A DNA stretch of 64,000 nucleotides from Gemmatimonadota bacterium (GTDB taxonomy: Bacteria; Gemmatimonadota; Gemmatimonadetes; Longimicrobiales; Gaopeijiaceae), in NCBI GenBank assembly GCA_022823145.1, contig JAJDXS010000075.1, positions 62,001 to 126,000 of the forward strand. Reading direction: 5' to 3'. Positions within the stretch are counted from its first letter, which is position 1. Each line of letters opens with the position of its first letter. The notes beneath the pieces were generated by a model. It was given only the letters and a program-made list of their open reading frames with translations. It made no database searches and was not told the origin of the DNA. A program made the position numbers and the translations under genes. Below are positions 31,261-40,847 of the stretch, one piece after another.

Positions 31261-32514
31261 CTAGAAGAAGAAGTTCAACGACGTGTACACGAACTGCGGT
31301 ATGCTGCCGTACTCCGAGCCGAAGCGCGGGATTCCGCCGTCGAGCGTCGCGTCTTCGCCCACCCCCGTAAACGCGCCGATCCGGAAGCTGGCGCCTTGCG
31401 TCACCGAGTAGCTCAGCCCCGGGCCGAACATGAACGACGCGTCCCGCAGGCTGCCCAGGAAAAGCGTGCTGGCCGACACCAGCGGATGGAGCTGCCACGA
31501 GAGCTGGAGGGCGCCCGTGTCGCGGCCCAGCACCTGCATTTCGCCCTGCGCAAACGCGCGGCTGGTGGCGGCGGCCACGAGGTCGTCCAGCGACTCGGCC
31601 CCCGCCTCGTCCCGCTGGTACTCGATGACGACGTAGAGGTCGCGTCCCGCGATGGGGAAGGTACGGTCGAGGCCCACGGTTCCCCGCACCACCAGCCTGT
31701 CGTCGAAGTCGCGCACCGCCGCTTCGGTCCGTAGCGCCCACAGCCCCACAGACCCGCTCAGCGACGCCGCCGCGCCGAAGGTGTCGTGCACGAGGCCACC
31801 CCATACGCCCAGGTCCCACCCGCCCCGGTTGGTGGTCGCGCGCCCGAGCAGCGTCAGCGTTCGCGCGCCGTCCAGGCCCACTCGGGCCGGCCGCGCGACG
31901 ACCTCGAACTGAGTGAATGCGCCCCGGTAGTACCGCAGTCGCGCCGCGTCGACACCCACCCGGTACTCGCGGAACGGGTCCGCGGGGTCGAAGGGCGAGA
32001 AGGGGTCGGAGGGTGTGAGGAAGAGGGTCGTCGCCCACGAAACGGGCTGTCTTCCGACCACGAGGTCGGCGTTGTCGCCCAGGTTGAAGCGAGCGCTCAG
32101 GCGGTCGAAACGGTGACGCCACTCGATGCCGTCCACCGTCTTCAGGTCGCCCCCGAGTTCCAGCCAGTCTCCACCGGAAGCGGTCCCCGCGGCCGCCGTG
32201 AAGAACTGCGCGCCCAGCACTCCGGGTTCGCGCAGCGACAGGGTGTGCTCGTAGGCGAAATCCAGCGCCGCCGGACCCGCGTCCCCCGTCCACATCACAC
32301 GAAACCGGTGAAAGCCCGAGCCGCTGGCGGGGCTGAGCACGCTGTTCCCCACCCGCGTCCACACGTTCAGGTAGCTGCCCGAAAACCCCGATCCCTGACC
32401 CTGCGCCGATACCGGCCAGAGGCCCTGAAACAGCAACGCCGCGCACGCGAGCATCCGCGCGCCCGGCAGCCGCCGGGACGGGCCCGCGCGGCGACGATCG
32501 CGGGCGCCGCACAT
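31261..32514 (-). CDS. Outer-membrane beta-barrel-like protein, last gene of the LolA-like export operon
   Basis: The 417-residue protein has a signal region and ~14-16 amphipathic beta-strand segments (NVWTRVGNSVLSPASGSGFHRF, LDFAYEHTLSLREPGVL, ARFNLGDNADLVVGRQPVSW) and ends in aromatic NFFF, all features of outer-membrane barrels. No named family recognised. Its ATG overlaps the ATPase stop by one base (TGATG), so it belongs to the same operon. It may be the outer-membrane exit or insertion partner of the ABC machine; this is inference from gene order. Confidence 0.75.
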   Translation of the reverse strand: MCGARDRRRAGPSRRLPGARMLACAALLFQGLWPVSAQGQGSGFSGSYLNVWTRVGNSVLSPASGSGFHRFRVMWTGDAGPAALDFAYEHTLSLREPGVLGAQFFTAAAGTASGGDWLELGGDLKTVDGIEWRHRFDRLSARFNLGDNADLVVGRQPVSWATTLFLTPSDPFSPFDPADPFREYRVGVDAARLRYYRGAFTQFEVVARPARVGLDGARTLTLLGRATTNRGGWDLGVWGGLVHDTFGAAASLSGSVGLWALRTEAAVRDFDDRLVVRGTVGLDRTFPIAGRDLYVVIEYQRDEAGAESLDDLVAAATSRAFAQGEMQVLGRDTGALQLSWQLHPLVSASTLFLGSLRDASFMFGPGLSYSVTQGASFRIGAFTGVGEDATLDGGIPRFGSEYGSIPQFVYTSLNFFF

Positions 32515-33212
32515 CAGCCGGAAGCCTCGTGGTCGCTTTCGATCCGCCCGTCGACGAGCCGGATCAGCCTCCGGGCCCGCTCCATGACCCTGGGATCGTG
32601 GGTGGAGAATACGAAGGTCGTCCCCTTGGTGCGGTTCAACCGCTCCATCACGTCGAGGAGTGCTTCGGCGGTGTGCGAGTCGAGGTTGGCCGTGGGCTCG
32701 TCCGCCAGAACCAGCGCGGGCTCGCCGAGCACCGCGCGCGCCACCGCCACCCGCTGCTGCTGGCCCCCGGAGAGCTTCGGCGGACGGCGGTCCTCCAGTC
32801 CCTCCAGGCCGATCTCCCGAAACAGCTCGCGCACCCGCTCACGGCGCTCCCGGGCGGGGACCCCTTGCAGAAGGAGGGTGAATTCGGCGTTCTCCAGCGC
32901 GCTCAGGACCGGAAGCAGGTTGTACGACTGGAAGACGAAGCCGATCCGGTGCATGCGCAGGTTGGCCAGCCTGCGGTCGGAGAGCGCGGATATCTCCTCG
33001 CTTTCGATCCAGACCTTGCCCCGCGTGGGACGGGTCAGGCCGCCCACCAGGTTCAGCATGGTGGTTTTGCCCGAACCGGACGGGCCCGCCATGGCCACGA
33101 ACTCCCCGCGCGAGACGGTCAGGTCTATCCCCCGCACCGCTTCGACGGGCCGCGGGTCCTGCGGGTAGATCTTCCAGAGACGCTCGGTCCGCACTGCATG
33201 CTCATTGCTCAT
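32514..33212 (-). CDS. ABC transporter ATPase (LolD/MacB type)
   Basis: The 232-residue ATPase has Walker A GPSGSGKTT, signature LSGGQQQRVAVARA, Walker B ALVLADEPTANLDS and the switch His in STHDPRV. Length and the absence of a permease domain match LolD/FtsE-type subunits that work with FtsX-fold permeases. It lies 4 bp after the first permease stop codon and overlaps the barrel gene by one base. It powers mechanotransmission rather than classical transport, by family analogy. Confidence 0.93.
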   Translation of the reverse strand: MSNEHAVRTERLWKIYPQDPRPVEAVRGIDLTVSRGEFVAMAGPSGSGKTTMLNLVGGLTRPTRGKVWIESEEISALSDRRLANLRMHRIGFVFQSYNLLPVLSALENAEFTLLLQGVPARERRERVRELFREIGLEGLEDRRPPKLSGGQQQRVAVARAVLGEPALVLADEPTANLDSHTAEALLDVMERLNRTKGTTFVFSTHDPRVMERARRLIRLVDGRIESDHEASG

Positions 33213-33216
33213 ATGC

Positions 33217-34473
33217 TCATTCCACCTTGACGGACTCGGCAGGATCCAGGGCGGCGGCCTGCCAGGCGGGGAAGACGGAGGCGGAAACTCCGATGACCGC
33301 GATGAAGAAGAGGCTCTGCGTCAGGTGCCTGACGTCGATGACCGGGTACATGATCGGGTTGAAGACGATGCCGGCGAAGCTCAGGTTCTCCGGCATGAGG
33401 CCGGTGAGGTCGAGCCCGTTGCGGAAGAAGACCCACACCAGGGCAAACCCAAGGGCCACGCCGATAACGCCGCTGGCGGCCGTGACCAGCACGCCTTCGA
33501 GGAACACGACCAGGCCGGTCTGGCGGGAACTCAGGCCCAGGGCGCGGAGCAGGCCAAGTTCCCGCTTCCTGTGCAGCACCGACATGAAGACTGCGTTCAG
33601 GATGGCCAGCGCCACGATGGCGAAGAGGATGAGGTGGAAGGCCCAGTCGCCTGCGTCGTCGATCCGGACCGCCGAGTAGAGTTCCGGGGACGCCTCCTCC
33701 CAGGGCGTGACCTCGACGCCCGAGGACTGCAATGCCGCGGCCGCCGCCTCGTGCACCTGACCGGTGAAGGTCGAATGCGGAAGGAGGGTGGCGACGCTGG
33801 TGGCGCCCTCGACGCCGAGCCAGTCCCGCGCCGTCCCGAGGGGGATGTGCACCAGCACGTCGTCCATTTCGGGCACGCCGGTGCGGAACATGCCCACCAC
33901 CCGCACAAGTTGCCCTTCGATGTCTCCCGACGCCCCCTGTGCGGTCAGGACCATGCGCGATCCGATGCGGAGGCCCAGGCGCAGTGCCATGCCCTGGCCG
34001 ATGAAAGCGTGGAGGCGGTCCCCTTCCTCCAGGTAGCGCCCGTCCAGCACGTCGGTGCCCAGGCGCGAGAACGCGAGTTCGGCGGCGGGATCGACACCGT
34101 GTATCCAGGCCGGGATCGCCCCGTCGGGTGAAGAGGCGAGTCCTCGTGCGCTCACCCGCACCGAAGTCAGCACCGCCTCCGGCAGCCCTGCGCGCTCGAC
34201 CGCCGCGAACGCCGCCTCCACCTGGTTTTCCGACAGCCTGTCCTCCAGGCTCTCGCTGTTGCGGTAGCCGGGGGCGTTGAATACTACGTGTCCGCTCCCC
34301 AGGCGGACGCCCGAATCGATCCAGTCCTCGTGCGCTCCGTCGGAGAGCGTGCGCGACACGATCAGCAACGCCAGCCCGATCGCCATGGCCGCGGCGGTCA
34401 GCGCAGCGCGGCGCATCTCCCTGCCCAGGTTGCGCAGCGCGAGCCATGCGAGCGTCGGGAGGCGGGACGTCAT
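33217..34473 (-). CDS. FtsX-fold ABC permease (LolC/LolE/MacB type), second copy
   Basis: The 418-residue protein has one N-terminal transmembrane helix, a large periplasmic domain (residues ~50-270), and three C-terminal helices with the FtsX pattern (FAIVALAILNAVFMSVLHRKRELGLLRALGLSSRQTGLVVFLEGVLVTAASG). Its ATG overlaps the first permease stop by 4 bp. Two different FtsX-fold permeases with one ATPase is the LolCDE arrangement. The periplasmic domains are where substrate proteins such as LolA dock. Confidence 0.9.
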   Translation of the reverse strand: MTSRLPTLAWLALRNLGREMRRAALTAAAMAIGLALLIVSRTLSDGAHEDWIDSGVRLGSGHVVFNAPGYRNSESLEDRLSENQVEAAFAAVERAGLPEAVLTSVRVSARGLASSPDGAIPAWIHGVDPAAELAFSRLGTDVLDGRYLEEGDRLHAFIGQGMALRLGLRIGSRMVLTAQGASGDIEGQLVRVVGMFRTGVPEMDDVLVHIPLGTARDWLGVEGATSVATLLPHSTFTGQVHEAAAAALQSSGVEVTPWEEASPELYSAVRIDDAGDWAFHLILFAIVALAILNAVFMSVLHRKRELGLLRALGLSSRQTGLVVFLEGVLVTAASGVIGVALGFALVWVFFRNGLDLTGLMPENLSFAGIVFNPIMYPVIDVRHLTQSLFFIAVIGVSASVFPAWQAAALDPAESVKVE

Positions 34474-35732
34474 CGGCTCGCCAGCGCGTCGGCGGGAGGC
34501 ACGCGGATGGCGCGCCAGGCGGGGTAGAGCGCCGATGCCACGCCCGTGCCGACGAGCGCGACCGCGCTAACCAGCGGACCGTCCCAGGAGTACTCCACGG
34601 TCAACAGCGGCTGCATCGCGGACCCCATGAAGGAGTAGGTGCCGATGAAGGAGCTGAGGTCGAGGGGGAACTCGTGGAAGTACACGACCACCGGGGCCGC
34701 CAGCAACGCCCCCGCACCCAGGGAGACGAGACCCAGGAACAGTCCCTCGCAAACCACGATGCGCACGATCGAGCGTCCCGAGGTTCCGAGCGAGCGGGCC
34801 ACGGCGAACTCCCGCCGGCGCTCGAACGTCGCGAGGAGCATCGTATTGGCAACGCCGAAGATGGCCATTCCGAAGATGATCATCGCAATGATCCCGTTGG
34901 CCGCCCCCATCATGCTGGTCATGAAGTAGAGCTGTTCATGGAAGACCGACCACGGCTCTACGACCAGGCCGTCCGCAAGTCCCTCGACCGCTTCCTCGAC
35001 CCGGGCGGCCACCAGGTCCGCCTGATCGGTGCGGTCGACCGAAATCGCGACCTCGTGGATGCGGCTTCGGTCCATCGCCATCAGGTCCTGCAACGACCCC
35101 AGATCGACCAGGACGTAGGCGTCGTCGAATCCTCCCATACCCAGGCGGAAGACCCCCGACACGGTGAAGAGTTCGTTGCCCATCGATCCGTCCGCCGCCG
35201 GGGCGACAACCACCACCTCCTCACCCGGCGCGGCCCCGATCGTCCCGGCCATCGCGTTGCCGATCGCGATCTCGCCCGGGCCCGGCATCCCGCCGACCAC
35301 GAACGAGGCGCCGAAGCGGCCGACTCCTTCCTCGCGGCGCGGATCGATGCCCATGAGCACCGCCCCCGCCGTCTCGTCGCCGGAGCTGATCAGCCCGCCC
35401 CCGTAGGCGCGCGGCGCCACTCCGGTCACGCCCGTGACCGACCCGGCCGCGCCGACCAGAGCCGCCAGGTCGAGACCCTCCCGGCCCCCCATCGTGTCGT
35501 GCATGCTGCGCTCGGGCCGGTAGTCGTCGGCGTGGATCTGCACCTGGCCCGTGATCACGCGGGTGCCGTTCGAGACCAGCTGCTCGAGCATCCCGTCCAT
35601 GAGTGCGATCATCAGGACCGCCGCCACGAAGCCGAACGACAGCGCCGACGCGGTGATCGCCGTGCGGCGGCGGTTCCGCCACAGGTTGCGCCAGGCCATC
35701 CGCCACCAGATGTCGTTGTCGCGCCTAGCCAT
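34470..35732 (-). CDS. FtsX-fold ABC permease (LolC/LolE/MacB type), first copy
   Basis: The 420-residue product shares the layout of the next gene: a first helix (TAITASALSFGFVAAVLMIALMDGM), a periplasmic domain and three C-terminal helices (IIAMIIFGMAIFGVANTMLLATFERRREFAVARSLGTSG). The two permeases are paralogous but clearly different, consistent with a heterodimer. It starts 8 bp after the LolA-like gene. I do not name it lolC/lolE since the substrate is unproven. Confidence 0.9.
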   Translation of the reverse strand: MARRDNDIWWRMAWRNLWRNRRRTAITASALSFGFVAAVLMIALMDGMLEQLVSNGTRVITGQVQIHADDYRPERSMHDTMGGREGLDLAALVGAAGSVTGVTGVAPRAYGGGLISSGDETAGAVLMGIDPRREEGVGRFGASFVVGGMPGPGEIAIGNAMAGTIGAAPGEEVVVVAPAADGSMGNELFTVSGVFRLGMGGFDDAYVLVDLGSLQDLMAMDRSRIHEVAISVDRTDQADLVAARVEEAVEGLADGLVVEPWSVFHEQLYFMTSMMGAANGIIAMIIFGMAIFGVANTMLLATFERRREFAVARSLGTSGRSIVRIVVCEGLFLGLVSLGAGALLAAPVVVYFHEFPLDLSSFIGTYSFMGSAMQPLLTVEYSWDGPLVSAVALVGTGVASALYPAWRAIRVPPADALASR

Positions 35733-35740
35733 CGGCGGGT

Positions 35741-36502
35741 TTACCTGCGGGCCCGAAGGTTCCGCAGGCTGAAGAAGTCCTCCTCGAGCCCGACGTCGAA
35801 CTCGAGTTCCAGGTAGATCACGACCGTGCGCTCTTCGCCTTCGGTGGGCTCCATCACCATCCGGGCCGGCAGCGTCCTTCCGCCCAGAACCCTGAAGTCC
35901 GAGAAGTTCATGGTGCGCACGAGGCTCCCGTCCTCATCGTAGTAGCGCGCCCAGATCGGCATCCGGTCCCTCTTGCGGATCTGCTGTTCGATCCGGCCCC
36001 AGATGACCGGCGCGTCGGGCTTTGGCGTGAGCGTGAATTCCCACACGTCCACGCCCTCGCGCGGACCGTTGTGCGAGATGACGATGTCGTAGTCCTCGAT
36101 GAGCCGGCTCTCCTTCACCAGGTCGTCGTTGGTGAAGTGGGAGCCCATCCACGAGCCGAGCATCATCGACGGCGGCACCTTGATCGTGCGGTCGACGTTC
36201 GGCAGGTAGTTCCAGACCTCGTTGTCCACCATCAGCGTCGCCGTGCCGGCCTCGCGGGCGGGAGTCTCGACCCGCACCAGGGAGTGCTCGGTTCCGAGCG
36301 ACCAGATCCGCATCTCGAGGGCCCGGGACCAGTTCTCTGTGTCGATCTCCATGCGCATCAGCCCCGCGCTGGATTCACCCCGCATCATTCGGTCGAATTC
36401 GTCGATGATCTCGAGTGCCAGCGGGTCGGTCTGCGCACGAGCGGGACCGGTCAGAAGCGCGAGGGCCAGCCCCGTCAACGCAAGGCTCCGGAGTATCTTC
36501 AT
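35741..36502 (-). CDS. Outer-membrane lipoprotein-sorting protein (LolA/LolB-like fold)
   Basis: The 253-residue protein has a signal peptide ending ARAQ and a LolA-type beta-sheet sequence (MRMEIDTENWSRALEMRIWSLGTEHSLVRVETPAREAGTATLMVDNEVWNYLPNVDRTIKVP, ending ...LEEDFFSLRNLRARR), typical of the COG2834-like lipoprotein-sorting family. It is the first gene of an operon with two FtsX-fold permeases, a LolD-like ATPase and a barrel protein. The likely job is to receive a lipid or lipoprotein from the ABC complex and pass it across the periplasm. It is not the housekeeping LolA with certainty, as such paralogues are common. Confidence 0.88.
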   Translation of the reverse strand: MKILRSLALTGLALALLTGPARAQTDPLALEIIDEFDRMMRGESSAGLMRMEIDTENWSRALEMRIWSLGTEHSLVRVETPAREAGTATLMVDNEVWNYLPNVDRTIKVPPSMMLGSWMGSHFTNDDLVKESRLIEDYDIVISHNGPREGVDVWEFTLTPKPDAPVIWGRIEQQIRKRDRMPIWARYYDEDGSLVRTMNFSDFRVLGGRTLPARMVMEPTEGEERTVVIYLELEFDVGLEEDFFSLRNLRARR

Positions 36503-36690: not shown

Positions 36691-37248
36691 ATGGCCGCCA
36701 TCGCCGCCCTCTGGCTCCCCATCCTCCTATCGGCCGTGGTGGTCTTCATCGTGAGCGCGGCGGTCTGGATGGTGATGCCCCACCACAAGAACGACTTCGC
36801 GCCCGCGTCGGACCAGGATGCCCTGATGGACGCGGTGCGCGGCAGCACCCCCGGACCCGGGATGTACTATTTCCCGTGGGCCACGGGAGGGGAAAACTCG
36901 CCCGAATACAGAGAGATGGCCCGGACCGGACCGGTGGGCATCCTGCGCGTGCGGGATCCCGAGGCGGTGCTGAACATGGGTCCCGCGATGCTCAAGTCGG
37001 TGGCGCTGTACCTGGTGGTCAGCGTGTTCGTCGCCTACCTGGCATCGGTCGCGCTGGGGCCCGGCGCCGCCTACCTGTCCGTCTTCCAGGTCACCGGCAC
37101 AGCGGCCTTCATGGCCTACGGCTTCATCGGCTACCAGGAAGCCATCTGGTTCGGCCTCCCCGCCAGGGTCGCCTTCAAGCACAGTCTCGACGGACTCGTC
37201 TACGCACTGCTCACCGCCGGCATCTTCGGCTGGCTCTGGCCCTCATAG
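36691..37248 (+). CDS. Four-helix membrane protein of unknown function
   Basis: The 185-residue product has hydrophobic segments at residues ~5-27, 110-130, 135-155 and 165-184 with a soluble loop (KNDFAPASDQDALMDAVRGSTPGPGMYYFPWATGG) between the first and second. I recognise no family with certainty; the loop pattern recurs in uncharacterised membrane proteins. It is followed by the OsmC-family gene after 15 bp, so they may be cotranscribed. Function unknown. Confidence 0.75.
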   Translation: MAAIAALWLPILLSAVVVFIVSAAVWMVMPHHKNDFAPASDQDALMDAVRGSTPGPGMYYFPWATGGENSPEYREMARTGPVGILRVRDPEAVLNMGPAMLKSVALYLVVSVFVAYLASVALGPGAAYLSVFQVTGTAAFMAYGFIGYQEAIWFGLPARVAFKHSLDGLVYALLTAGIFGWLWPS

Positions 37249-37263
37249 CCCACGAAAAACCCA

Positions 37264-37725
37264 ATGAGCGACACTGTCTACCAAGCAAGCGTGCGCATCG
37301 AGCGCACCCGGGGGCCGCACCGGCTGGCCCACCTCCCGGCCCATGAAGGCCCCGTCGAATTCGGCGTCCACGGGGCGATCGCGGAACACTACGGGGTCAG
37401 CGGGATCGTCACCGAGACCACGACCACCCTCGACTACGTGATCGCTGCTACCGGCGGCTGACTCGTCGGTACCTTCGGAGGCGTGCTGGAGGCACGCGGG
37501 ATCGATGCGTCGGGCGGAAAGCTCACGGCGGATGTGCAGGGGAAGGTCGGCAAGGAGGAGGGTGTCCTGGTCATTCGCCACATCCACGTGAAGTACCTGC
37601 TGCAGGCGGATGGCGGCGACCCGGCGGCTGTCCAGCGGGCGTTCGACCTGCACCCCATGCGGTGTCCCGTCTACCGGACGCTGCACAAGTGCATCGAGAT
37701 CACGACGGAACTGGCCGTTGTCTGA
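37264..37725 (+). CDS. OsmC-family peroxidase-like protein, probable selenoprotein (TGA at codon 66)
   Basis: The frame 37264-37725 codes 153 residues if the in-frame TGA at 37459-37461 is read as selenocysteine. The sequence on both sides is one continuous OsmC/Ohr-type protein: TTTLDYVIAATGG-U-LVGTFGGVLEARGID and, near the end, RCPVYRTLH with Cys 134. In OsmC proteins the first catalytic Cys sits exactly where the TGA is, and the second Cys is in the C-terminal CPV motif. A hairpin (GCGTGC/GCACGC, loop TGGAG) begins 19 bases after the TGA, fitting a bacterial SECIS. OsmC enzymes reduce organic hydroperoxides. Alternative: a nonsense mutation or base error of TGC/TGT to TGA. No selA/selB/selC are in the window. 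Confidence 0.72.
37481..37497 (+). promoter_or_regulatory. SECIS-like stem-loop downstream of the OsmC in-frame TGA
   Basis: GCGTGC (37481-37486) and GCACGC (37492-37497) form a 6-bp stem with loop TGGAG. The loop begins 25 nt after the TGA and has G at its second position, as known for bacterial SECIS elements (short apical loop with a G among its first two bases, within a few tens of bases of the UGA). The lower stem is not obvious. Confidence 0.6.
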
Positions 37726-37864
37726 CCCGGCACCGACGGTAAGCCCCCGGCGCGGGACCCGTCCTGAACCTTTGACAGCGGGCGTGCCGTAATGCTCACT
37801 TTGTTTCCCGCGCGCTCGGCGCCGGCACTCCACGAGAAGGAACAGAACGGAAGGAACCAACGCC

Positions 37865-37927
37865 ATGGTCCAGATCCTCAAGACCGTCGTGCGCGCAGTC
37901 CTGAGGTGGCTGCTGAAGAAGATCTGA
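37865..37927 (+). CDS. 20-residue cationic amphipathic peptide
   Basis: A very short ORF codes 20 residues with Lys/Arg at positions 6, 10, 14 and 18 (plus 19) and hydrophobic residues elsewhere, so one face of a helix is basic and the rest apolar. GGAAGG lies 10 bp before the ATG. It ends 2 bp before the GTG of the cytochrome-barrel gene. It could be a membrane-active or antimicrobial-like peptide, a small membrane-bound regulator, or a translated leader that couples to the cytochrome gene. Nothing in the sequence settles this, and chance cannot be excluded. Confidence 0.45.
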   Translation: MVQILKTVVRAVLRWLLKKI

Positions 37928-37929
37928 GG

Positions 37930-39135
37930 GTGCGTCCGACCCGGCCGCTCCGCGCCCTCGTGGCCACCGCGGCCGCCACGGCGTTCCCCCTCGCCATCGC
38001 CATTCCCGCCACCGCCCAACTCCCCCTCGCCGCCAACGGCGAAGACCTCGCCGACGCCGCGGGCGACGTCATCTACGCCGCTTCCTGCGCCAACTGCCAC
38101 GGCCTCGACGGCACCGGCCTGCCACCCTCCCTGCTCGCCTTCGAGGAGGAGGTCCCGGACTTCACCGACTGCGACTTCGCCGCCCGCGAGCCCGATGGCG
38201 ACTGGATCGCGGTGGCGCACGAGGGCGGTCCCGTTCGCGGCTTCAGCGAGATGATGCCGGCGTTCCGGGGCGCCCTCACCGAGGAGCAGCTGGGCCGCGT
38301 GATGGGCTACATCCGCACCCTCTGCACCGACGACAACTGGCCGCGCGGCGAACTCAACCTGCCCCGGCCCCTTCTGACCGAGAAGGCGTACCCCGAGGAC
38401 GAGTGGGTGGTGGAGCTGGGTGTGGATCTGGAGAGCGACGGTGGCGCCTCGGCAGCGTACGTATACGAGCAGCGGTTCGGTCCGCGCAGCCAGGTGGAGA
38501 TTGTCATCCCCTACGGATGGCGCAGTGGCGTCGCGCGCGACCATGGCCACGACGATCACGACCACGACGGCCACGACGACGAAGCAACCGGCGACGGCCT
38601 GCGCCATGGCCTCGGCGATGTCGTGGTCGGTGTCAAGCACGCCCTGCATCACGACCTCGACCTCGGCAGGATCTTCTCGGTCGGCGGCGAAGTCATCCTC
38701 TCCACCGGCGACGAGGGCGCCGGGCTGGGAGCCGCCGGCAATGCGCTCGAGGCTTTCGCGTCCTACGGCCAGATCCTTCCCGACGACGGTTTCATCCAGA
38801 CGCACACCGGCTTCGAGGTGCCGCTCTACGACGGCGCGAGCGAGGCGTTCGGCCGCCTGGTCCTCGGACGGAGCTTCACGGAGGGCCAGTGGGGGCGCAC
38901 CTGGACCCCCATGCTCGAGATACAGCTCAAGCGCCACTTCGAGTCGGGCGCGGCGACGACACTCGACCTCGTGCCCCAGGCGCAGGTCTCGCTCAACACC
39001 AGACAGCACGTCCTGGCCAACTTCGGCCTGCTGATACCGGTGACGGGAAACGCGGGGGAGACGGCCAGGTCCGTGCGGCTGGTCACGTACCTCCTCCTCG
39101 ACTGGTTCGACGGCGGCTTCTTCGAGGGGTGGTGA
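37930..39135 (+). CDS. Cytochrome c fused to an outer-membrane beta-barrel domain
   Basis: Starting at the GTG at 37930, the 401-residue protein has a signal peptide (RPTRPLRALVATAAATAFPLAIAIPATAQ), a monoheme cytochrome c domain with CANCH (near residue 58) and a Met ligand in SEMMPAF, then a ~260-residue barrel-like part ending in FFEGW. A His/Asp-rich loop (HGHDDHDHDGHDDE, near residue 200) may bind metal. The upstream in-frame extension lacks a signal character and overlaps the small peptide ORF. The pentaheme cytochrome gene follows after 2 bp. A heme domain joined to a barrel would suit electron passage across the outer membrane; this is inference. Confidence 0.8.
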   Translation: MRPTRPLRALVATAAATAFPLAIAIPATAQLPLAANGEDLADAAGDVIYAASCANCHGLDGTGLPPSLLAFEEEVPDFTDCDFAAREPDGDWIAVAHEGGPVRGFSEMMPAFRGALTEEQLGRVMGYIRTLCTDDNWPRGELNLPRPLLTEKAYPEDEWVVELGVDLESDGGASAAYVYEQRFGPRSQVEIVIPYGWRSGVARDHGHDDHDHDGHDDEATGDGLRHGLGDVVVGVKHALHHDLDLGRIFSVGGEVILSTGDEGAGLGAAGNALEAFASYGQILPDDGFIQTHTGFEVPLYDGASEAFGRLVLGRSFTEGQWGRTWTPMLEIQLKRHFESGAATTLDLVPQAQVSLNTRQHVLANFGLLIPVTGNAGETARSVRLVTYLLLDWFDGGFFEGW

Positions 39136-39137
39136 CG

Positions 39138-40847
39138 ATGTCAGGACAATTACGCACTTTGCGAGTTCGTTGGCCCGCCCTCGCGGCCCCGATCTGCCTC
39201 GCGGCTGGCGGCCTCCTCATCGGCGCCGGCACTCCGGCAACGTCGGCCTACAACGCGGCCGGACCGCCCGCTTCCTCGCCAGCGGACACGACCGAGCCGG
39301 CCGACCACTTCCGCACCGCCGACCGGTGCATCGCCTGCCACAAGGACGTGACCGCCGCCGGCGGCGTCGACGTCTCGATCGGATTCGACTGGCGCGCCTC
39401 GATGATGGCCAACGCCGCCCGCGACCCCTACTTCCAGGCGGCGGTGCGGCGCGAGATCATGGACTACCCCGAGGCCGCCGCCGAGATCGAGGGCGAGTGC
39501 GCGCGCTGCCACATGCCCATGGCGACCATCGCCGCGCTTCAGGAGGGACGACCGGGCGAGGTGTTCGCGAACCTGCCGATCGCGGGCGCCGAGGGACCCT
39601 ACGCCGATCTCGCCGCCGATGGGGTCTCGTGCTCGCTATGCCACCAGATCCAGCCCGACGGCCTGGGCAGCGAGGAGACCTTCACGGCCCGTTTCGACGT
39701 TTCAGCTGAAACGCCTCCCGAGGGCCGTCCCGTCTTCGGCCCCTTCGAGCCCGACGAAGGCGGCGTCGGAATCATGCATTCGGCGACCGGCTTCCGCCCC
39801 ACGCTGGGTGAACACGTCACTTCGTCCGGGCTGTGCGCGTCGTGCCACACCGTGATCACCCACCCCGTGCGGCCCGGCGGGAGCGGCCCGGCGTTCCCGG
39901 AGCAGGCGCCCTACCTGGAGTGGCAGGCCAGCATCTACGCCGAGGGCGCCGAGCGGGAGCACAGCTGCCAGGACTGCCACATGCCCGAGGTCGGCGAGGA
40001 AGTCCCGGTTACCCGCGTGCTCGGCCGCGCCCGTCCCGAGGTCTCCCGCCACGTTTTCCGCGGCGGCAACTTCTTCATGCTGCGCATGCTCAACCGCTAC
40101 CGGGAGGAGCTCGGCGTCACCGCGCTGCCCCAGGAGATGGAACTCGCGGCCCAGCGCACCGCCGACCACCTGCGCACCGCCACCGCCACCGTCGAACTCA
40201 GCGGTGTGGGTTTGGGCGGAGGACGCCTCGAGGCTACGGTGACGGTGCGCAACCAGGCCGGCCACAAGTTCCCGACCGCCTACCCGTCCCGGCGGGCGTG
40301 GCTGCGCTTCGCGGTCACGGACAGGTGGGGAGACCGCGTGTTCGAATCGGGCGCGCTGTCCGCCGACGGCCGCGTCGCGGGCGACGACCACGACGCCGAC
40401 GGCGCCGGCTACGAACCGCATCACACGGTCATCACGTCACCTGACGAGGTGCAGGTCTACCAGGGCGTCATGGTCGACGGCGACGGCACCGTCACCACCG
40501 GACTCATGTCGGCGCACCAGTGGGTGAAGGACAACCGCATCCTCCCCGACGGCTTCGATCCAGCGCGCGCCGACGCCCGCGTGCAGGTGGTCGGGATCGC
40601 CGCGGAAGACCCGGACTTCGTCGCCGGCTCCGACCGCGTGCACTACACGGTTCCCGTGGACTCGGCGGATGCCCCCTTCGCCGTCGAAGCCGAGCTCTGG
40701 TTCCAGCCGATCGGCTACCGCTGGGCGGAGAACCTGGCCAGTTACGACGCGACCGAGACGAGGCGTTTCGTCCAGTACTACCGCGAGATGGCGGAGGGGT
40801 CGGCGCTGCTGCTGGCACGGGCGGAGGCAGCCAGCGAGCCGAACTGA
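39138..40847 (+). CDS. Pentaheme cytochrome c
   Basis: The 569-residue protein has a signal peptide or N-terminal anchor (PALAAPICLAAGGLLIGAG) and five heme motifs in the first 300 residues: CIACH, CARCH, CSLCH, CASCH and CQDCH. The C-terminal part is beta-rich (ATVTVRNQAGHKFPTAYPSRRAWLRF), with HKFPTAYP as found in multiheme cytochromes related to the c554/nitrite-reductase families. The ATG at 39138 lies 2 bp after the cytochrome-barrel gene. It is likely periplasmic or surface-located and works with that gene in electron transfer. No terminal oxidase or nitrogen-cycle reductase genes are nearby to fix a pathway. Confidence 0.9.
   Translation: MSGQLRTLRVRWPALAAPICLAAGGLLIGAGTPATSAYNAAGPPASSPADTTEPADHFRTADRCIACHKDVTAAGGVDVSIGFDWRASMMANAARDPYFQAAVRREIMDYPEAAAEIEGECARCHMPMATIAALQEGRPGEVFANLPIAGAEGPYADLAADGVSCSLCHQIQPDGLGSEETFTARFDVSAETPPEGRPVFGPFEPDEGGVGIMHSATGFRPTLGEHVTSSGLCASCHTVITHPVRPGGSGPAFPEQAPYLEWQASIYAEGAEREHSCQDCHMPEVGEEVPVTRVLGRARPEVSRHVFRGGNFFMLRMLNRYREELGVTALPQEMELAAQRTADHLRTATATVELSGVGLGGGRLEATVTVRNQAGHKFPTAYPSRRAWLRFAVTDRWGDRVFESGALSADGRVAGDDHDADGAGYEPHHTVITSPDEVQVYQGVMVDGDGTVTTGLMSAHQWVKDNRILPDGFDPARADARVQVVGIAAEDPDFVAGSDRVHYTVPVDSADAPFAVEAELWFQPIGYRWAENLASYDATETRRFVQYYREMAEGSALLLARAEAASEPN

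Follow-up and report, generated by a model that had tools for sequence, protein, structure and literature searches.

A predicted OsmC-type selenoprotein gene of Gemmatimonadota with relatives in Acidobacteriota and Chloroflexota

OsmC-like selenoproteins have been predicted from marine metagenomes, as the preliminary description of this DNA had noted: three sequences were reported from the Sargasso Sea in 2005 (PMC1088965) and five from the Global Ocean Sampling in 2008 (PMC2398784), both sets with the motif UxxT. The Sargasso paper also gives Cys homologues of the OsmC-like proteins, 10 in the Sargasso data and 17 in genomes (PMC1088965), and OsmC-like selenoproteins are also named in two other papers (PMC9312934; PMC13188914). 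This kind of selenoprotein is known but thinly documented. In the literature on OsmC selenoproteins or selenocysteine and on Gemmatimonad selenoproteins, judged by titles, we found no paper title on this gene in the phyla treated here.

The locus described here lies in a stretch of 64,000 nucleotides (the window) from a Gemmatimonadota draft genome of 4.49 Mb in 83 contigs. Two open stretches (37264-37461 and 37483-37725) share the same frame with a single TGA between them, and read-through gives a protein of 153 residues that matches the Pfam OsmC model PF02566 over residues 53-149 (E 8.9e-14, 52.2 bits vs a cut-off of 27.5). The frame and the domain match together bear out the earlier reading of one OsmC-type protein across TGA codon 66. 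Gene callers split 37264-37725 at the TGA, as had been anticipated for standard gene finders, and the second stretch opens with a GTG start at 37483. The features of the locus are as follows.

36691..37248, + strand: upstream membrane-type protein of 185 aa, context only; upstream in 13 of the 80 named loci (best 80 of at least 426)
37264..37725, + strand: predicted OsmC-type selenoprotein gene, 153 residues, coordinates with the terminator included; PF02566 match; internal TGA common to relatives
37432..37434, + strand: codon GAC of Asp57, the invariant acid nine residues before the predicted Sec; aligns with Glu of PDB 1ukk
37459..37461, + strand: TGA codon 66, read as probable Sec; all 116 distinct coding sequences have TGA here; aligns with Cys of PDB 1ukk
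37481..37497, + strand: predicted bacterial SECIS hairpin, in which 37481-37486 pairs with 37492-37497 around the loop 37487-37491 (TGGAG); evidence from covariation, a codon-redraw control and a published model
37663..37665, + strand: codon TGT of Cys134, the second residue of the predicted redox pair; unchanged in all 21 rows of alignment A1
37723..37725, + strand: terminating TGA of the OsmC-type gene; the best hairpin 3' of it is weak (-3.6 kcal/mol)

Like the marine OsmC-like selenoproteins, the predicted protein combines an OsmC domain (COG1765 / PF02566) with Sec at the redox position and a SECIS element just downstream. The motif around the predicted Sec is U66-L-V-G-T70 (U-x-x-G-T, with Thr at +4), which is one residue longer than the marine UxxT when compared with the printed motif rather than with the sequences; it may represent another branch or a loosely written motif. 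While the marine surveys hold three and five sequences, the gene is matched in 111 of the 196 related genomes analyzed here (E 0.001 or better) and, unlike the Sargasso set with its Cys homologues, no close Cys homologue was found among the relatives searched.

In alignment A1, which holds 21 rows of relatives, U66, C134, D57, R20, G69 and T70 are invariant. The profile of these relatives finds the Thermus OsmC protein of PDB 1ukk (E 7.5e-06), whose two Cys meet U66 and C134 and whose Glu meets D57, while R20 is placed outside the structural match. The likeness to this distant protein, which has Cys in place of Sec, is one of fold, seen by profile match over residues 56-148 only. E. coli YhfA (PDB 1ml8), a member of the OsmC superfamily, gives a profile match at E 0.0047; YhfA proteins are described as having neither the Arg nor the Glu that stand next to the reactive Cys (PMC8945050). 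The NCBIfam models NF008009 and TIGR03562 match weakly, far under their curated cut-offs (13.7 vs 138 bits and 16.9 vs 85.8 bits, respectively). The lipoyl-dependent peroxidase Ohr likewise has a two-residue redox pair in an OsmC fold (PMC8945050); the window protein gave no match to an Ohr model or structure. The preliminary description had the TGA replacing the peroxidatic Cys, with the resolving Cys134 kept. Cys134 is indeed present, and the TGA column holds Cys in 1ukk and TGC both in the ordinary OsmC gene of the same genome and in that of a relative. The column is thus a Cys column in distant OsmC proteins, and the role names ‘peroxidatic’ and ‘resolving’ are carried over from OsmC/Ohr.

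A 6-bp stem with a G-containing loop of 5 nt was found at 37481-37497 as had been claimed, with 19 bases separating it from the TGA. It passes a published model of bacterial SECIS elements (stem of 4-16 bp, loop of 3-9 with a G among its first two bases, distance of 16-37 nt to the UGA, MFE <= -7.5; PMC13188914) with 7 pairs and the loop GGA (or 6 pairs and the loop UGGAG), at 26 nt and -9.7 kcal/mol. The same model also accepts 129 of the 1,188 TGAs on both strands of the window, 61 of the 129 at -9.7 kcal/mol or lower, so that the hairpin alone proves little. The window further contains 112 read-through frames with a single TGA and at least 60 codons on either side (46 on the + strand, 66 on the - strand). 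A hairpin plus an open frame, both common in this GC-rich window, was therefore rejected as proof; the features listed in the preliminary description are present as described, but taken alone they are not beyond chance. The reality of the gene, at the level of sequence, rests on OsmC homology and on conservation over relatives.

Folded alone, the 45-base stretch is no better than its shuffles (z -0.29) and has a different minimum-energy fold, and an Rfam search of 37200-37800 gave one sub-threshold chance match only; in a 60-base context, the stem has a pairing probability of 0.99-1.0. All six stem pairs form in 82 of 96 distinct 45-mers and fail in 14. In a codon-redraw control, in which each protein was kept and synonymous codons were drawn anew (500 trials, all 96 sequences), all six pairs formed in a mean of 4.3 and a maximum of 12 sequences with each gene's own codons, and in a mean of 4.0 and a maximum of 14 with pooled codons. 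Covariation was analyzed in alignment A2, consisting of 39 of the 96 45-mers picked for spread. Here, 95.3% of the cells pair, and both sides have changed in two of the pairs, in 5 and 7 sequences (12 cells). None of 500 shuffles reached 12 cells changed on both sides, the covariation score beat 500 of 500 shuffles, and slid structures scored lower; two of the five measures in this shuffle control were unremarkable (205 of 500 for pairs with a both-side change and 500 of 500 for further pair types). RNAalifold recovers the same stem with one closing pair added. The stem reads GCGUGC/GCACGC in the window, GCGCGC/GCGCGC in most relatives and GCGCAC/GUGCGC in a second branch, whose member in the source genome (L093, see below) carries the swapped pairs GCGCAC/GTGCGC.

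Across the 96 distinct sequences, Val/Ala, Ala/Ala and Ala/Val occur at residues 72 and 76, each with matching codons, and Val/Val never does. From these covarying residues, the hairpin appears to constrain the protein. A contiguous hairpin of at least six pairs is missing in 12 of the 96, namely in all nine distinct Chloroflexota sequences and in three from Gemmatimonadota. The Chloroflexota members concerned (L119, L121, L126, L127, L130, L131, L137, L140, L155, L157 and L166) have the TGA and lack a contiguous stem where it usually lies; for one Chloroflexota sequence, which L126, L130 and L140 share, a bulged stem is predicted.

Each of the 111 matching genomes has at least one match with the TGA, 103 of them among the matches listed and eight by separate search. 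The 150 matches listed, from 103 genomes, comprise 149 that hold one TGA and a fragment (residues 1-48) that ends before the codon; in the other eight genomes, the best matches all have the TGA in column 66. In a named genome collection with at least 426 matching loci, the best 80 belong to Gemmatimonadota (48), Acidobacteriota (19), Chloroflexota (11) and Actinomycetota (1), with one unplaced, and the closest among them is that of Gemmatimonadota MAG SB0664_bin_10 (97% identical). No match was found in plasmid records, and three pattern matches in viral contigs included no relative. The preliminary description had held that a selenoprotein of this type would be notable in this lineage. This goes too far: in Gemmatimonadota the subfamily normally carries TGA, which also occurs in its Acidobacteriota and Chloroflexota members.

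The source genome encodes the factors for Sec insertion that the preliminary description had proposed to look for. We found selA (506.7 bits vs a cut-off of 267.9), selB (305.3 bits vs 242.25, along with seven lower-scoring matches, probably to further GTPases from its superfamily), a tRNA-Sec (78.1 bits vs a gathering score of 47; called SeC with anticodon tca by ARAGORN) and selD (381.3 bits). The selD gene (L049, 1465-2526) has an in-frame TGA of its own in SHGAGUACKLG, with a hairpin of -10.2 kcal/mol. Over the 196 relatives, the OsmC-type gene and selA occur together in 106 genomes, the gene alone in five, selA alone in 37 and neither in 48 (Fisher p 1.3e-16, a value that ignores shared descent); one of the 143 genomes counted as selA-positive lies below the family cut-off. 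In all five genomes with the gene only, tRNA-Sec scores over the cut-off, and these drafts are 73-95% complete. As a separate observation, tRNA-Sec is matched twice above the cut-off in relative G124 (66.8 and 53.5 bits, on C7 and C403), which has no selA match.

Taken together, the conserved UGA, the Cys column, the covarying hairpin and the Sec factors in the genome support the earlier reading of a probable selenoprotein, and we consider 37264-37725 to be very probably (roughly 96%) a real selenoprotein gene encoding a Sec-containing, OsmC-type redox enzyme. Of the findings that the preliminary description had named as refuting it, neither a missing selB or selC nor a column devoid of Cys in homologues was encountered. 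That the TGA is a sequencing error or marks a decayed gene would be in line with the draft state of the source genome (83 contigs) and with the frame being split by gene callers, but the TGA is present in all of the best 80 of at least 426 named loci and in 111 of 111 matching relatives. Beyond the codon and the hairpin, dN/dS is 0.08-0.45 in seven of eight pairs, the eighth being saturated, and the internal TGA is constant where the terminators vary: of the 116 distinct coding sequences, including that of the window, 55 end with TGA, 43 with TAG and 17 with TAA, one being cut off. Error or decay is hence extremely improbable; a base error in particular is excluded in practice, because the TGA recurs in many separate assemblies. 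An internal TGA that acted as a free stop should drift like these terminators, and its constancy argues against a true stop that would leave a 65-residue protein, whether by itself or accompanied by another one initiated within the gene. The GTG start at 37483 and the use of TGA at the gene's own end would agree with such a stop, but neither TAA nor TAG occurs at the codon in any of the 116 sequences, unlike the expectation for free stops, the split would fall within the OsmC domain (residues 53-149) at the redox residue, and the hairpin covaries, leaving this reading with a negligible probability as well.

The UGA could also be read through as Cys, Trp or another residue, for example by a mischarged tRNA or by weak near-cognate decoding. 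Sec as the inserted residue is predicted from sequence, and five of the 111 gene-bearing genomes have no detected selA. However, these five are the incomplete drafts with tRNA-Sec noted above, and the gene otherwise follows selA. Free decoding as Cys would not explain why no Cys codon is seen at this column in the subfamily, and the window gene and 54 others of the 116 end with TGA, so that TGA is not a general sense codon. We therefore regard read-through with a residue other than Sec as very unlikely.

For the selenoprotein reading, a mechanism can be proposed. SelB would bring Sec-tRNA to the UGA at 37459-37461, aided by the hairpin at 37481-37497, and the second TGA (37723-37725), which is followed by no strong hairpin, would end the protein. 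By analogy with the OsmC/Ohr family, the selenolate of Sec66 would attack a peroxide or similar oxidant and Cys134 would then form a selenenylsulfide with Sec66. A lipoyl-type or other thiol donor would reset the Sec66/Cys134 pair, perhaps lipoylated proteins as for Ohr/OsmC (PMC8945050). Reduction of peroxides or disulfides is accordingly put forward by analogy as the putative activity of the enzyme.

The neighbors of the gene are common to close Gemmatimonadota. Among the best 80 of at least 426 named loci, clusters of shared neighbors stay almost wholly within one phylum, so we inferred no partner and rejected gene context as a functional clue. The product of 36691..37248 has no Pfam or NCBIfam match. 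Several other frames were observed nearby. A tiny reading frame at 37865-37927 encodes MVQILKTVVRAVLRWLLKKI, and similar peptides (xxRAxLRWLLKK) lie downstream in six of the 80 named loci (best 80 of at least 426). A downstream frame at 38403-40847, following a frame with a cytochrome c domain (37792-39135), has five CxxCH haem motifs and is likely a multihaem cytochrome. On the - strand, an ABC ATPase, a MacB/FtsX-type permease and a LolA-like lipoprotein-sorting protein are grouped at 32514-36502.

The source genome has two further OsmC genes, one on contig C14 with a TGA and one on contig C4 without it, which has TGC in the reactive column. The C14 gene (L093; G000:C14:30615-30911) is OsmC-type and about 34% identical to the window protein, with the TGA in the same column. 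In a tree built by a quick method, 21 L093-type rows from relatives form one branch (support 100), and the Chloroflexota (11 rows, support 99) and Acidobacteriota (19 rows, support 76) are each set on one side of a branch; no order of descent was drawn because 46 of the 105 inner branches are open.

No Cys codon was seen at the Sec position of the subfamily in the 116 distinct sequences, the matches listed together with the eight re-searched genomes, or the best 80 of at least 426 named loci. A Cys form would match equally well, since the query bears Cys at this codon. The nearest Cys relative among the matches examined is the ordinary OsmC gene L183 with codon TGC (31% identity across residues 52-152, E 1.3e-5), which is one of two weak matches without TGA in the eight re-searched genomes, the other being L184 (E 3.0e-4). 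Further weak matches without TGA may be present among the remaining matches beyond the 150 listed. The 48 relatives with neither the gene nor a detected selA gave no match at all, neither a TGA nor a Cys form, and loss therefore seems to win over reversion.

These observations lead us to suggest, tentatively and at a little under even odds, a Sec-obligate OsmC branch distinct from the marine UxxT group. It would consist of two paralogous Gemmatimonadota subfamilies, one of them also present in Acidobacteriota and Chloroflexota. Sec would have become fixed early in this branch and would not be replaceable by Cys; on losing the Sec system, a lineage would lose the gene rather than revert. New with respect to the described OsmC-like selenoproteins are the breadth of the family, its pair of branches and the finding of no Cys form, for which mainly Gemmatimonadota were searched. 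OsmC-like selenoproteins, rarely seen so far, thereby gain a wide range of hosts among bacteria of soil, groundwater and the sea, and ordinary gene calling is shown to split them. A branch that is truly Sec-obligate would offer a natural setting in which to ask why Sec is retained.
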